Source: a virus. From it: a DNA stretch of 29,528 bases. Below are positions 154-5,984 of the stretch, piece by piece. The DNA lies in IMG/VR virus record IMGVR_UViG_3300008263_000020, positions 1 through 29,528 of that record; one strand, given 5' to 3'. Position numbers and translations under genes: made by a program. Every line of letters starts with the position of its first letter. The first letter of the stretch is position 1. Under the pieces are notes generated by a model, which was not told where the DNA came from, searched no databases, and worked only from the letters and a program-made list of their open reading frames with translations.

Positions 154-178
154 AAGTGGTATTATTACCACTTTTTTT
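153..178 (+). terminator. Intrinsic terminator, probably bidirectional
   Basis: Stem AAAGTGGT (153-160) pairs with ACCACTTT (167-174) around the loop ATTATT and is followed by a T run. On the minus strand the same stem is followed by TTTAAATTTTTTC, so it could also end the minus-strand RNA that starts near 252. Confidence 0.85.
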
Positions 179-331: not shown

Positions 332-361
332 TTGTGGGAATGAAAATTATTATTATCTTTG
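332..361 (+). promoter_or_regulatory. Promoter of the 388 gene
   Basis: TTG (332-334), 19 bases, TATCTTTG (354-361). The flanking sequence 315-341 is nearly repeated at 1678-1702 before the 1753 gene, so the two operon heads are duplicates. The promoter lies inside the longer GTG-initiated reading frame from 334, which rules out that start. Confidence 0.85.
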
Positions 362-387: not shown

Positions 388-615
388 ATGGCAAAGATTA
401 ATTTAGAGAAACACATTTGGGAAGGGTGGACAGTTGGCGATTTTATCAACAACTTGGAACCAATGTTCGATATGATTATGCGTGGTCAATCGTGGAAGAA
501 ACCTTTTACTACAAAACAAGAAGTAAAAGAATGGTGTATGGATATGCAAAGTGGTTATAAGAAACATATACCCGATGTAGTTAATTATTTTGTAGCAAAA
601 GCAAAAATAAAATAA
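388..615 (+). CDS. Small hypothetical protein (75 aa)
   Basis: This 75-residue protein starts MAKINLEKHIWEGWTVGDF and has an aromatic-rich middle (WEGW, QSWKKP, EWCMDM) and a Lys-rich end. The ATG at 388 is chosen because the GTG at 334 lies upstream of the promoter's -7 element (354-361). The leader is A-rich with no Shine-Dalgarno, as usual in Bacteroidota. It is the first gene of an early-looking operon. No family was recognised. Confidence 0.7.
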   Translation: MAKINLEKHIWEGWTVGDFINNLEPMFDMIMRGQSWKKPFTTKQEVKEWCMDMQSGYKKHIPDVVNYFVAKAKIK

Positions 616-622
616 AAAAAGA

Positions 623-654
623 TTTGCATAATAGAAATATTATGCTTATCTTTG
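623..654 (+). promoter_or_regulatory. Hairpin-spacer promoter (possible terminator-promoter hybrid)
   Basis: TTTG (623-626) and TATCTTTG (647-654) flank a perfect inverted repeat: GCATAATA (626-633), loop GAAA, TATTATGC (638-645). The hairpin begins 10 bases after the upstream stop and is followed by the T-rich TTATCTTTGTTT, so its RNA form could also terminate the upstream transcript. Three similar elements with different arm sequences lie at 914, 1278 and 2386. Confidence 0.8.
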
Positions 655-680
655 TTTCATAATCATTAAAACAAAAAGAA

Positions 681-896
681 ATGAAATTAACTACAATTGG
701 AAAAGTCAATCTTGAAAGGGTTGAAGACGGGAACCAAGCATTGATTTGTGAATCAATACCAATAGAAACGGCTGACTCAGACGATGAAAATGGTATGTCT
801 GTTATATTATCGTCTTGGGATGAAGATACAGTCCATACTGATTTGAATTTATTACTTGGTAAAAAAGTGAAAATAACTATTGAAATTATTGATTAA
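681..896 (+). CDS. Small acidic hypothetical protein (71 aa)
   Basis: This 71-residue acidic protein starts MKLTTIGKVNLERVEDGNQ. It has a central acidic patch (ETADSDDENG) and a C-terminal beta-like stretch (KKVKITIEIID). It is preceded by its own hairpin-spacer promoter at 623-654 and an A-rich leader. No family was recognised. Phage proteins this small, acidic and under host-type promoters are often early host-interaction factors, but nothing here proves that. Confidence 0.7.
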   Translation: MKLTTIGKVNLERVEDGNQALICESIPIETADSDDENGMSVILSSWDEDTVHTDLNLLLGKKVKITIEIID

Positions 897-913
897 AAAT
901 AATTGCAAAAAGA

Positions 914-945
914 TTTGGAATAGTGAAGACTATTCCTTATCTTTG
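914..945 (+). promoter_or_regulatory. Hairpin-spacer promoter
   Basis: TTTG (914-917) and TATCTTTG (938-945) flank the perfect arms GGAATAGT (917-924) and ACTATTCC (929-936) around GAAG. It has the same geometry as the element at 623, with a different arm sequence. Confidence 0.8.
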
Positions 946-971
946 TTTCACAAACAATAAAACACAAAACA

Positions 972-1187
972 ATGGAAATTTTATTTTATTTAGTATGTTT
1001 AGGTATAGGTTTAGGTATGGGCTATCTTATTGCACAATCAAATAAACCAAAATGTAACCACAAATGGAAACTTATTGAAAAAGGTGAAGTTTGGAGAGGT
1101 AATATAAACAACATAAGAGGTTGGGTAAAAGTTTACCAATGTGAACATTGTCTTAAAATGAGAAAAGAACAAGTTGAAATAGATTAA
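972..1187 (+). CDS. Membrane-anchored small zinc-finger-like protein (71 aa)
   Basis: Residues 3-21 (ILFYLVCLGIGLGMGYLIA) form one hydrophobic segment. The cytoplasmic-looking remainder carries CNHKW near residue 28 and CEHC near residue 57, spacing compatible with a small zinc ribbon. The protein would sit in the inner membrane with a zinc-binding tail. It has its own hairpin-spacer promoter at 914-945, and a 31-codon frame follows after 3 bases. Function is unknown. Confidence 0.7.
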   Translation: MEILFYLVCLGIGLGMGYLIAQSNKPKCNHKWKLIEKGEVWRGNINNIRGWVKVYQCEHCLKMRKEQVEID

Positions 1188-1190
1188 ACT

Positions 1191-1286
1191 ATGGCAAAGA
1201 TAAGTAAAACTACAAAATATGTAATTGCAAGTATTATGTATATTGAATATTATAGTAGAAAACTTTTTAGTAAAATATTTGGATAA
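1191..1286 (+). CDS. Very small ORF (31 aa)
   Basis: ATG at 1191 opens a 31-codon frame (MAKISKTTKYVIASIMYIEY, then a Lys/Phe-rich end) only 3 bases after the upstream stop, suggesting translational coupling. Its last codons overlap the next hairpin-spacer promoter (1278-1309). The first four residues, MAKI, match the 388 gene. The peptide is basic with a short hydrophobic centre. It is too short to assign and may not be a true gene. Confidence 0.4.
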   Translation: MAKISKTTKYVIASIMYIEYYSRKLFSKIFG

Positions 1287-1309
1287 GTGAAAACTTATCC
1301 ATACCTTTG
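1278..1309 (+). promoter_or_regulatory. Hairpin-spacer promoter driving a non-coding transcript
   Basis: TTTG (1278-1281) and TACCTTTG (1302-1309) flank the perfect arms GGATAAGT (1281-1288) and ACTTATCC (1293-1300) around GAAA. No gene follows. The transcript would be the structured RNA at 1316-1545. Confidence 0.8.
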
Positions 1310-1315
1310 AAGAAG

Positions 1316-1545
1316 AAAATAAAGAAATAAAGATATTGTAGGAAAAGGTCGATATAAAGAGAAGTCTCTGCTGAACCTCGTAGACTTGGGAATGATACAT
1401 CATTACATAATTAGTTTCCCTTTTCCGTTGTAGTTTAACACTAATTATGTTTTGATAAACCTTTTATATCGTAATTGATTTTGGGGAATGTTTCATTAGA
1501 GGTTGTTGTTGGGAATAGGTGTAAACTTATTCCCAATTTCTTTTT
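1316..1545 (+). ncRNA. Candidate pseudoknotted non-coding RNA (about 230 nt)
   Basis: The unit has a promoter (1278-1309) and a terminator (1509-1545) but no credible open frame. Long perfect pairings are visible: CGATATAAA (1350-1358) with TTTATATCG (1463-1471); ACATAATTAG (1405-1414) with CTAATTATGT (1441-1450); AAGTCT (1362-1367) with AGACTT (1382-1387); AATGA (1391-1395) with TCATT (1400-1404). GGAAAAGG (1341-1348), just outside the closing stem, pairs with CCTTTTCC (1419-1426) in the loop of the 1405-1450 hairpin, making a pseudoknot. I do not recognise it as tmRNA, 6S RNA or a known riboswitch. Confidence 0.55.
1509..1545 (+). terminator. Intrinsic terminator of the non-coding transcript
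   Basis: TTGGGAATA (1509-1517) pairs with TATTCCCAA (1528-1536) and is followed by TTTCTTTTT. The minus-strand side lacks a T run. Confidence 0.85.
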
Positions 1546-1565
1546 AATACTTTTCGTTCACGTAT

Positions 1566-1606
1566 AGACGCGTTGGAGTCTAGTCTTCTATTCTCATAGC
1601 ACGTCC
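1566..1606 (-). ncRNA. Structured small RNA, family copy 2
   Basis: On the minus strand GGACGUG pairs with CGCGUCU, with two positions changed to G-U wobbles relative to copy 1. The CUAU-GAGA-AUAG hairpin is identical to copy 1, and the inner block is AAGACUAGACUCC. The wobbles exist only in minus-strand RNA; on the plus strand the same positions are A-C mismatches. The promoter is at 1619-1648. A minus-strand terminator is less clear than for copy 1. Confidence 0.65.
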
Positions 1607-1618
1607 TTAGCGACATAA

Positions 1619-1648
1619 CAAAGATAGTAATAATATTGACTTGTGCAA
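1619..1648 (-). promoter_or_regulatory. Minus-strand promoter for sRNA copy 2
   Basis: Minus strand TTG (1648-1646), 19 bases, TATCTTTG (1626-1619). The initially transcribed region TTATGTC is shared with copy 3. Confidence 0.8.
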
Positions 1649-1693
1649 CAAAAATATGAAAAAAAATAAAAAAAAATTATTTTCATAAAAGTG

Positions 1694-1723
1694 TTGTGGG
1701 AATCAAATTTATTTATATCTTTG
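1694..1723 (+). promoter_or_regulatory. Promoter of the 1753 gene
   Basis: TTG (1694-1696), 19 bases, TATCTTTG (1716-1723). It falls inside the longer GTG-initiated frame that begins at 1696, so translation must begin further downstream. Confidence 0.85.
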
Positions 1724-1752
1724 TTCTATTATTAATCTTAAAAAACAAAGTT

Positions 1753-2367
1753 ATGGGTTACACAACTGATTTTATCGGAACGTTCAAATTGAACAAACAA
1801 TTAACGCCTAAAATGGCGCAATACTTAAAACTATTCAACGAAACTCGTAGAATGGGTAGAAATACTGATGAGGTATTTGGTATTCAAGGTGAATTCTTTG
1901 TATTTGGTGGTGGTAGTTTTGGACAAGACCGAGAAGAAAACGTGATTGACTTTAATACACAACCAAGCACACAACCAAGCCTTTGGTGTCAATGGTGTCC
2001 TACTGATGACCTTATGGGTATAGAATGGGACGGAGGAGAAAAGTTTTATCATTATACTGATTGGTTAGTTTACCTTATTCACAAAATATTAGCGCCAAAC
2101 GGATATGTGTTGAATGGTGTTGTTACGTGGCAAGGTGAAGAAACTGGTGATGTAGGGGAAATCATTGTTGAAAACAATAGAGTGTTTGAGCAACCATGGA
2201 AAGGTAGTAAAACAGAAATAACCCCACAAAGCGCTACAAAGTATCATTATGGTAATGGTGGTTTTAATTATATAAGTGATTATATGCGAACTGATGTTGT
2301 GTTAATATTAGACGGAACTGATGTTGAATTACCAAACACTTTTGGTGGGTTATTAGAAACTAACTAA
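1753..2367 (+). CDS. Conserved phage/bacterial hypothetical protein, MGYTTDF family (204 aa)
   Basis: The start ATG at 1753 gives MGYTTDFIGTFKLNKQLTP, followed by a YLKLFNETRRMGRN block, then LWCQW near residue 75 and WDGGEKFYHYTDWLVYLIH. I recognise this as a widespread uncharacterised family, usually about 150 residues; here an extra C-terminal section of about 50 residues (after FEQPWKGSK) is present. The frame upstream to 1696 overlaps the promoter and is not translated. Function is unknown; the conserved Trp and Asp/Glu residues suggest an enzyme or ligand-binding fold, which is inference. Confidence 0.8.
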   Translation: MGYTTDFIGTFKLNKQLTPKMAQYLKLFNETRRMGRNTDEVFGIQGEFFVFGGGSFGQDREENVIDFNTQPSTQPSLWCQWCPTDDLMGIEWDGGEKFYHYTDWLVYLIHKILAPNGYVLNGVVTWQGEETGDVGEIIVENNRVFEQPWKGSKTEITPQSATKYHYGNGGFNYISDYMRTDVVLILDGTDVELPNTFGGLLETN

Positions 2368-2385
2368 AAAAATAATTAAAAAAGA

Positions 2386-2417
2386 TTTGGATAATCGAAA
2401 GATTATCCTTATCTTTG
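2386..2417 (+). promoter_or_regulatory. Hairpin-spacer promoter
   Basis: TTTG (2386-2389) and TATCTTTG (2410-2417) flank the perfect arms GGATAATC (2389-2396) and GATTATCC (2401-2408) around GAAA. Compared with the 1281 element, the last two arm positions changed together on both sides. Confidence 0.8.
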
Positions 2418-2445: not shown

Positions 2446-2670
2446 ATGTTAAATAATATAACAAGTTACAATAATCCTCCGAAAATTGGAGATAAAGTTG
2501 TTGTCCAAACCCATTTTGAGGGTAAAAAAATATGCGTTGTTGATAGAATTGATAACAAAAAAATCCATTTTAAAAATAAAAGTTTTGGGTTGGAGGTTAA
2601 TCTTGATAGGGTTTTTAGTTTATTAGAAACATATCGAGGTGCAAAGTTTTTTTACCAATCTTTTAATTAA
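2446..2670 (+). CDS. Small hypothetical protein (74 aa)
   Basis: This 74-residue basic protein has the block PPKIGDKVVVQTHFEGKKI, then VVDRIDNKKIHFKNKSF. The alternating pattern suggests a small beta-barrel (SH3- or KOW-like), by pattern only. It is preceded by a hairpin-spacer promoter and followed closely by a 30-codon membrane ORF. No family was assigned. Confidence 0.65.
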   Translation: MLNNITSYNNPPKIGDKVVVQTHFEGKKICVVDRIDNKKIHFKNKSFGLEVNLDRVFSLLETYRGAKFFYQSFN

Positions 2671-2997: not shown

Positions 2998-3027
2998 TTG
3001 TTTATTTAAAAATTATTCATACCTTTG
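2998..3027 (+). promoter_or_regulatory. Promoter of the 3057 gene
   Basis: TTG (2998-3000), 19 bases, TACCTTTG (3020-3027). It is divergent from sRNA copy 3 and carries no perfect inverted repeat in the spacer. Confidence 0.85.
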
Positions 3028-4748: not shown

Positions 4749-4814
4749 ATAAAATAGCATAAAAAAAAATTAAATTATTTTTAAAAAAAACTTGCATATT
4801 AAAAAATAAAACCC

Positions 4815-4853
4815 AGGTCGGAGTCTACTCTTCCATTCCCACGGCACGTACCT
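4815..4853 (-). ncRNA. Structured small RNA, family copy 4 (diverged)
   Basis: On the minus strand the capped hairpin is CCGU-GGGA-AUGG, still a GNRA loop, with one G-U pair that would be A-C on the plus strand. The block AAGAGUAGACUCCG is conserved. The outer stem is reduced to AGGU/ACCU. The downstream minus-strand sequence GGGTTTTATTTTTT could terminate it. The promoter is at 4867-4897. Confidence 0.55.
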
Positions 4854-4866
4854 TAATTGTACACTA

Positions 4867-4897
4867 CAAATATAGGAAGGATAAATTTAATATGCAA
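4867..4897 (-). promoter_or_regulatory. Minus-strand promoter for sRNA copy 4
   Basis: Minus strand TTG (4897-4895), 20 bases, TATATTTG (4874-4867). Confidence 0.75.
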
Positions 4898-5888: not shown

Positions 5889-5984
5889 TTCGTGAAATTT
5901 TTTTTGGGAAAATTTTTTCATTTCATTTTTTAGGTCTTCGTGAAATTTTTTTTGGGAAAATTTTTTCATTTCATTTTTTAGACC
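5889..5984 (+). repeat. Two tandem 48-bp repeats
   Basis: Unit 5889-5936 is repeated at 5937-5984 with changes only near the end (GGTC against GACC). Each begins TTCGTGAAATTTTTTTTGGG and contains GAAAATTTTTTC-type A/T symmetry. The repeat is non-coding. Confidence 0.9.

Follow-up and report, generated by a model that had tools for sequence, protein, structure and literature searches.

The window analyzed here, a 29.5-kb phage fragment from IMG/VR (29,528 nucleotides), carries four promoters with a perfect hairpin between their -33 and -7 boxes, and these elements are most probably composite terminator-promoters placed between co-directional phage genes. The first 6 kb of the window hold a cluster of small plus-strand genes, several of which have a Bacteroidetes-type promoter of their own. 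The Flavobacterium sigma-A promoter consists of a -33 TTG and a -7 TAnnTTTG, the latter covering positions -12 to -5 (PMC9723704). Elements whose stem is confined to the -33/-7 spacer and whose -7 box is a putative U-tract are hereafter called type I. The arms, loops, and boxes that a sequence-only reading had placed at 623-654, 914-945, 1278-1309, and 2386-2417 proved exact, and all four 8-bp hairpins are perfect (Table 1). The combination of perfect 8-bp arms and a 4-nt loop immediately preceding TAnnTTTG occurred four times in the window versus never in 200 Markov-shuffled windows, and a reversed-pattern control for the same motif gave no match in the window. Pairing extends outward in three of the four elements, where AAAGAT and the ATCTTT of the -7 box pair beyond a 2x2 T.T loop; the RNA of those three is predicted to fold into a 6-bp helix, a 2x2 U.U loop, an 8-bp helix, and the tetraloop (-14.5 to -16.9 kcal/mol). 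No Rfam match was found in the window. The element at 1278 is atypical, with a 9-bp stem, TACC in the -7 box, and no AAAGA outer arm. It is also the exception to the earlier statement that the elements lie right after an upstream stop codon, which holds for those at 623, 914, and 2386 (7, 17, and 18 nt past the stop); at 1278, the stop TAA of a 31-aa ORF falls inside the 5' arm. The promoters at operon heads (332, 1694, and 2998) had been said to lack a perfect repeat, and inspection found none there.

Table 1. Type I elements of the window, neighboring genes, operon-head promoters, and an ordinary terminator for comparison
Feature	Position	Strand	Outer arm	-33 box	Hairpin arms (5' / 3')	Loop	-7 box	Remark
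Type I element 1	618-654	+	AAAGA 618-622	TTTG 623-626	GCATAATA 626-633 / TATTATGC 638-645	GAAA	TATCTTTG 647-654	
Type I element 2	909-945	+	AAAGA 909-913	TTTG 914	GGAATAGT 917-924 / ACTATTCC 929-936	GAAG	TATCTTTG 938-945	
Type I element 3	1278-1309	+	none	TTTG 1278	GGATAAGT 1281-1288 / ACTTATCC 1293-1300	GAAA	TACCTTTG 1302-1309	9 bp including flanking T/A
Type I element 4	2381-2417	+	AAAGA 2381-2385	TTTG 2386	GGATAATC 2389-2396 / GATTATCC 2401-2408	GAAA	TATCTTTG 2410-2417	
Gene upstream of element 1	388-615	+						orthologues in G024, G027
Gene between elements 1 and 2	681-896	+						
Gene after element 2	972-1187	+						phrog_7696
31-aa ORF	1192-1287	+						stop inside 5' arm of element 3
Gene upstream of element 4	1753-2367	+						phrog_38666
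Gene after element 4	2446-2670	+						putatively driven by element 4
Operon-head promoter	332-361	+					TATCTTTG 354-361	no hairpin
Operon-head promoter	1694-1723	+					TATCTTTG 1716-1723	no hairpin
Operon-head promoter	2998-3027	+					TACCTTTG 3020-3027	no hairpin
Ordinary terminator	154-177	+						stem GTGGTA..TACCAC, T8

The comparison set comprised 17 contigs or contig parts, the window included, in which every TTTG-N20-TANCTTTG site was taken; pairing statistics were computed over 334 distinct promoter 32-mers with no selection on pairing. Related contigs are among those counted, so p-values are guides only, and gene calls are simple ORFs. All eight positions were paired in 24 of the 334 distinct promoters versus 0.59 expected when the 3' arms were dealt out anew, and at least seven were paired in 38 versus 4.5 in shuffles (maximum 12 over 500 shuffles). 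When the arms were slid by 1-3 nt, no promoter reached seven pairs, versus 89 in register. These statistics, together with the Markov shuffles, ruled out a chance origin of the hairpins. The symmetry is not absent from relatives: the element is present in at least 16 other IMG/VR contigs, some of them near-duplicates, as found by scans of the collection. That pairing and not sequence is conserved, as had been proposed from the window, holds over this larger set for pairs 2 and 4-8 of the type I stem, which are of varied Watson-Crick types among contigs, but not for pairs 1 and 3, which are invariant G-C and A-T. After one orthologous gene, each of three phages has its own arm pair, perfect in every case (GCATAATA/TATTATGC in the window, GCATAATC/GATTATGC in G024, and GGAATTGT/ACAATTCC in G027), and the gene downstream differs among them. 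GNRA loops were found in 29 of 40 distinct hairpins versus 29 of 250 sequences at the same place in other promoters, a linker T in 37/40 versus 153/250, and TATC in 35/40 versus 151/250. AAAGA stands upstream of 79% of the hairpin promoters versus 3% of the others, and the outer six pairs, which run through the -7 box, are complete in 73 of 89.

The location of the hairpin promoters follows the genes upstream of them. For 82 of the 92 unique hairpin promoters, the distance from a co-directional stop codon is -12 to +28 nt, most commonly 12 to 19 nt, and at nine of the other ten a short co-directional ORF ends, the shortest of which could be chance. Divergent positions account for 59 of the 269 promoters with at most four pairs; an apparent set of divergent hairpin promoters was an artefact of gene calling. 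By folding, promoters without a spacer hairpin were more structured when co-directional than when divergent (-10.0 versus -6.4 kcal/mol). This extra structure behind co-directional genes is partly due to a second class, type II, a geometry missed by the sequence-only reading, whose hairpin-promoter layout was otherwise confirmed. Type II has the A-tract/hairpin/T-tract anatomy of a terminator, with the 5' arm before the -33 box, the TTTGG of that box in the hairpin loop and 3' arm, and the T-tract as promoter spacer. An example lies at G016:4619 (AAAAAAAAGTGACAATAC tatttg GTATTGTCACTTTTTTTT CTTATCTTTG), and others at G017:6115, G035:13217, and about 30 more distinct sites. Stems of type I or II were found at 99 of 265 co-directional versus 4 of 71 divergent promoters (p=3e-8, as a guide). 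At 138 of the 265 co-directional promoters there was no stem of at least 8 bp anywhere near, so insulation would not be universal.

For a repeat read as duplex DNA, one strand should show G.T and A.C departures with equal frequency. The coding strand of near-perfect distinct type I stems has nine GT/TG departures and no AC/CA, and that of type II stems 49 versus 9 (wobble was scored as a mismatch in the search); with related contigs included these counts are not fully independent, and their direction is alike in both classes. The G.T bias and the mostly GNRA loops together indicate RNA from the plus strand of the element. The hairpin occupies about -33 to -14, relative to a -7 TAnnTTTG at -12 to -5, so the only transcript that can contain it is that of the upstream gene, which marks the type I hairpin as a putative RNA element at the 3' end of that transcript.

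The best indirect evidence that the elements may do terminator work is their exchange with ordinary terminators. Orthologues of the gene at 1753-2367 occur in G022, G035, and G024. This gene ends in a type I element in the window and G022, in a type II element in G035, and in an ordinary T7 terminator (AAGTGGGAAATTACTCCCACTTTTTTT) in G024, where no co-directional promoter follows within the stretch read. The gene after the element differs between the phages that carry these orthologues, and the one at 2446-2670 is absent from the orthologous place in G022. Type II shows full intrinsic-terminator anatomy, namely a stable hairpin and a T-tract after a stop codon. In type I, hairpin and stop codon are present and the T-tract is borderline, being TTATCTTTG and not a T-run. 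On the d'Aubenton-Carafa score, whose scale was trained on E. coli, type I is borderline (median -2.4), the four window elements scoring +0.7, +0.7, -10.7, and -21.5 and the ordinary terminators of the window +26 to +34. The earlier idea that the -7 region serves as U-tract is upheld in that the region is U-enriched, remains borderline on this E. coli-trained score, and leaves termination as something we infer. T is enriched in the linker, the -7 box, and the first downstream base relative to non-hairpin promoters, which suggests selection for a U-tract within the limits of a promoter; TATC also serves pairing with the AAAGA arm, an alternative source of the enrichment. Because the U-tract TTATCTTTG is borderline, termination at type I may be partial, which would fit the data equally.

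As composite terminator-promoters, the elements would work as follows. RNA polymerase leaving the upstream gene would transcribe the 8-bp hairpin, usually GNRA-capped, and then UUAUCUUUG, at which it would pause or terminate. As a duplex, the same DNA would act as a promoter of the Bacteroidetes sigma-A type, in which the hairpin forms the spacer between -33 TTTG and -7 TAnnTTTG and the latter box doubles as U-tract. Type II would fit a complete terminator into such a promoter in the reverse arrangement, with the -33 TTTGG in the loop and 3' arm and the T-tract in the spacer. Each small gene of a dense cluster would thereby be insulated. This reading, first put forward from the sequence alone, withstood all the checks applied. 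RNA-type covariation on the coding strand, the position after stop codons, and the U-richer downstream tract support it, as do the exchange with ordinary terminators at orthologous ends and the full T-tracts of type II.

Alternatively, though with a rather low probability, the hairpin might be a non-terminating RNA processing or mRNA 3'-end stabilising element (e.g., an RNase III site), its overlap with the promoter being mere compaction of signals on a read-through transcript. RNA-like pairing in the upstream transcript that continues through the -7 box, with most outer arms complete (73/89), would suit such a role, as would the structure of 8 bp, 2x2 U.U loop, and 6 bp and a U-tract that is weak for a terminator. 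However, the tract after the stem is T-enriched over non-hairpin promoters, type II elements with full T-tracts occupy like sites, and orthologous ends swap with ordinary terminators. We consider it very unlikely that the repeat is a dyad operator for a dimeric phage regulator in the promoter spacer. Its perfect 8-bp symmetry between -33 and -7 and its recurrent arm words (GGATAAGT and GGAGAATT) recall such a site, but the arms change in concert, the orthologous site included, with no conserved half-site, and the hairpins are tied to the orientation of the upstream gene; moreover, an operator should tolerate GT and AC equally, as opposed to the 9 versus 0 and 49 versus 9 found.

The N4 virion promoter has a template-strand DNA hairpin near -11 with a 3-nt loop and no host-type boxes, and the N4 polymerase reads the template strand. 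The idea that hairpins extruded from promoter DNA are read by a phage N4-type virion RNA polymerase, raised by the sequence-only reading as its alternative, draws on the likeness of a phage promoter with a hairpin and a short purine-rich loop. It is disfavoured to the point of being barely credible: wobble is biased to the non-template strand, where each tolerated G.T corresponds to a template-strand A.C, the hairpin is bordered by canonical -33/-7 host boxes, a gene end precedes almost every copy, and most promoters in the same contigs lack a spacer hairpin. Template-strand pairing, the -11 position, and the absence of host boxes thus set N4 apart from the present elements. Equally improbable is a recombination module only, with repeated spacers as shuffling homology and pairing as a by-product. 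Different genes do follow orthologous elements and DNA homology does end near promoters twice as often as at random points, but these ends are equally enriched at hairpin and non-hairpin promoters, and homology would keep sequence rather than pairing.

Fusion of terminator and promoter is known from T4-like phages, and the layout described here appears to be new. The promoter-early stem-loops (PeSLs) of those phages are reportedly composite promoter-terminator cassettes that combine a stem-loop with an early promoter among small co-directional genes, and they are said to lie in a variable region where gene content changes at PeSLs. By these accounts, the likeness is a stem-loop and a promoter fused in a small intergenic element. 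On the other hand, in the scanned parts of Phi1 and T4 overlapping stem-loops straddle the -10 box, e.g., GGGAGTAT(GCTATA)ATACTCCC, or else an ordinary terminator stands upstream of the -35 box, whereas here the stem lies wholly between the boxes or, in type II, the loop is the -33 box and the T-tract the spacer, and the promoters are Bacteroidetes-type and not sigma-70. No sequence relation to PeSLs was seen. Different genes follow orthologous elements here, but the ends of homology show no preference for hairpin promoters over others. One protein of the window, itself a fragment, matches a portion of a protein from Flavobacterium phage immuto, a phage with T4-like gp20/gp23. The best reading is that the element would work like a PeSL, nested differently and in another promoter system. 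Ordinary intrinsic terminators share the A-tract, hairpin, and T-tract after a stop codon, in full with type II, and differ in that here a promoter box lies inside the loop, arm, or tract and the type I tract is TTATCTTTG. Bacteroidetes/Flavobacterium sigma-A promoters share the boxes and their spacing of about 20 nt (PMC9723704) and differ in that here the spacer is a perfect inverted repeat with conserved pairing. PeSLs are attributed to Arbiol et al. 2010 (doi 10.1093/gbe/evq006) and Comeau et al. 2014 (doi 10.1093/gbe/evu129), as cited in PMC4503421, and in the literature searched no promoters with terminators nested as here were found.

Judging by promoter type, the carriers, all uncultured, would have Bacteroidetes-type hosts. 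Neither tblastn of two neighboring genes nor blastn of the elements found a cultured carrier, and phage immuto has no such elements. The parts examined of the crAss-like cr111_1 and of the huge phage LR745206 have the promoter type and no perfect spacer hairpins of the type I kind. A host origin was rejected: among 84,980 bacterial and archaeal genomes scanned, only a single Bacteroidales MAG had the strict pattern, in two small contigs that may be phage DNA binned with it.

Other elements were observed in the window and in further contigs. A short RNA family with the core AGAGTAGACTCC(G/A)AC occurs on the minus strand of the window at about 189-262, 1560-1626, 2851-2956, and 4813-4875, and also in G002, G017, G018, G022, G024, G027, G030, and G035. 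It comprises 71 distinct sequences in the examined contigs, two of them probably chance (G008 and G034), and has no Rfam match in the window. These RNAs typically lie right behind a TAnnTTTG promoter, at times type I, the stems preceding the core show signs of covariation (GUACC/GGUAC, GUUG/CAAC, and UGUC/GACA), and hits of a strict pattern are confined almost entirely to this phage group. A non-coding plus-strand stretch of about 215 nt (1330-1545), bounded by the 1278 promoter and a terminator at about 1512-1548, is 82% identical in G022, with compensatory changes in the helices GGAAAAGG/CCTTTTCC and AUAUAAAG/CUUUUAUAU; the helices interleave in a pseudoknot-like manner, and the stretch has no Rfam match. 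Another non-coding stretch, at 5889-5981, holds two identical 45-nt direct repeats (TTCGTGAAATTTTTTTTGGGAAAATTTTTTCATTTCATTTTTTAG). At L087:5470 (-), L040:1062 (-), L039:6351 (+), and similar sites in other viral contigs, the spacer dyad lies within a longer outer repeat that encloses both boxes (TTTCACAAA ... TTTGTGAAA; CCCCACA ... TGTGGGG), which makes a further variant. In the type I elements at G030:82534 (-) and G022:40609 (+), the 5' arm can also pair with a segment upstream (ATAATTCAAA/TTTGGATTAT and GATTGTGCAAA/TTTGCATAATC, respectively), and because of this second partner two exclusive folds are possible.

In E. coli, reinitiation after intrinsic termination has been demonstrated in vitro (PMC6978380). 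By analogy, it is conceivable, if unlikely, that a polymerase, on letting go of its RNA at the element, already sits on the following promoter and initiates anew from it; on that doubtful view, the fusion would hand polymerases from gene to gene, more than save space. As composite terminator-promoters, these elements would be stretches of about 40 nt constrained twice, as duplex promoter and as RNA terminator, in two geometries within one phage group. With both geometries at hand, one can ask directly which positions of the promoter are free to vary and whether a polymerase that has terminated can be used again in place. Type I may escape terminator finders that rely on T-runs, and the elements might serve as compact insulated promoters for Bacteroidetes genetics. 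For the phages themselves, they would mean that in a compact genome opposite signals can overlap this far.
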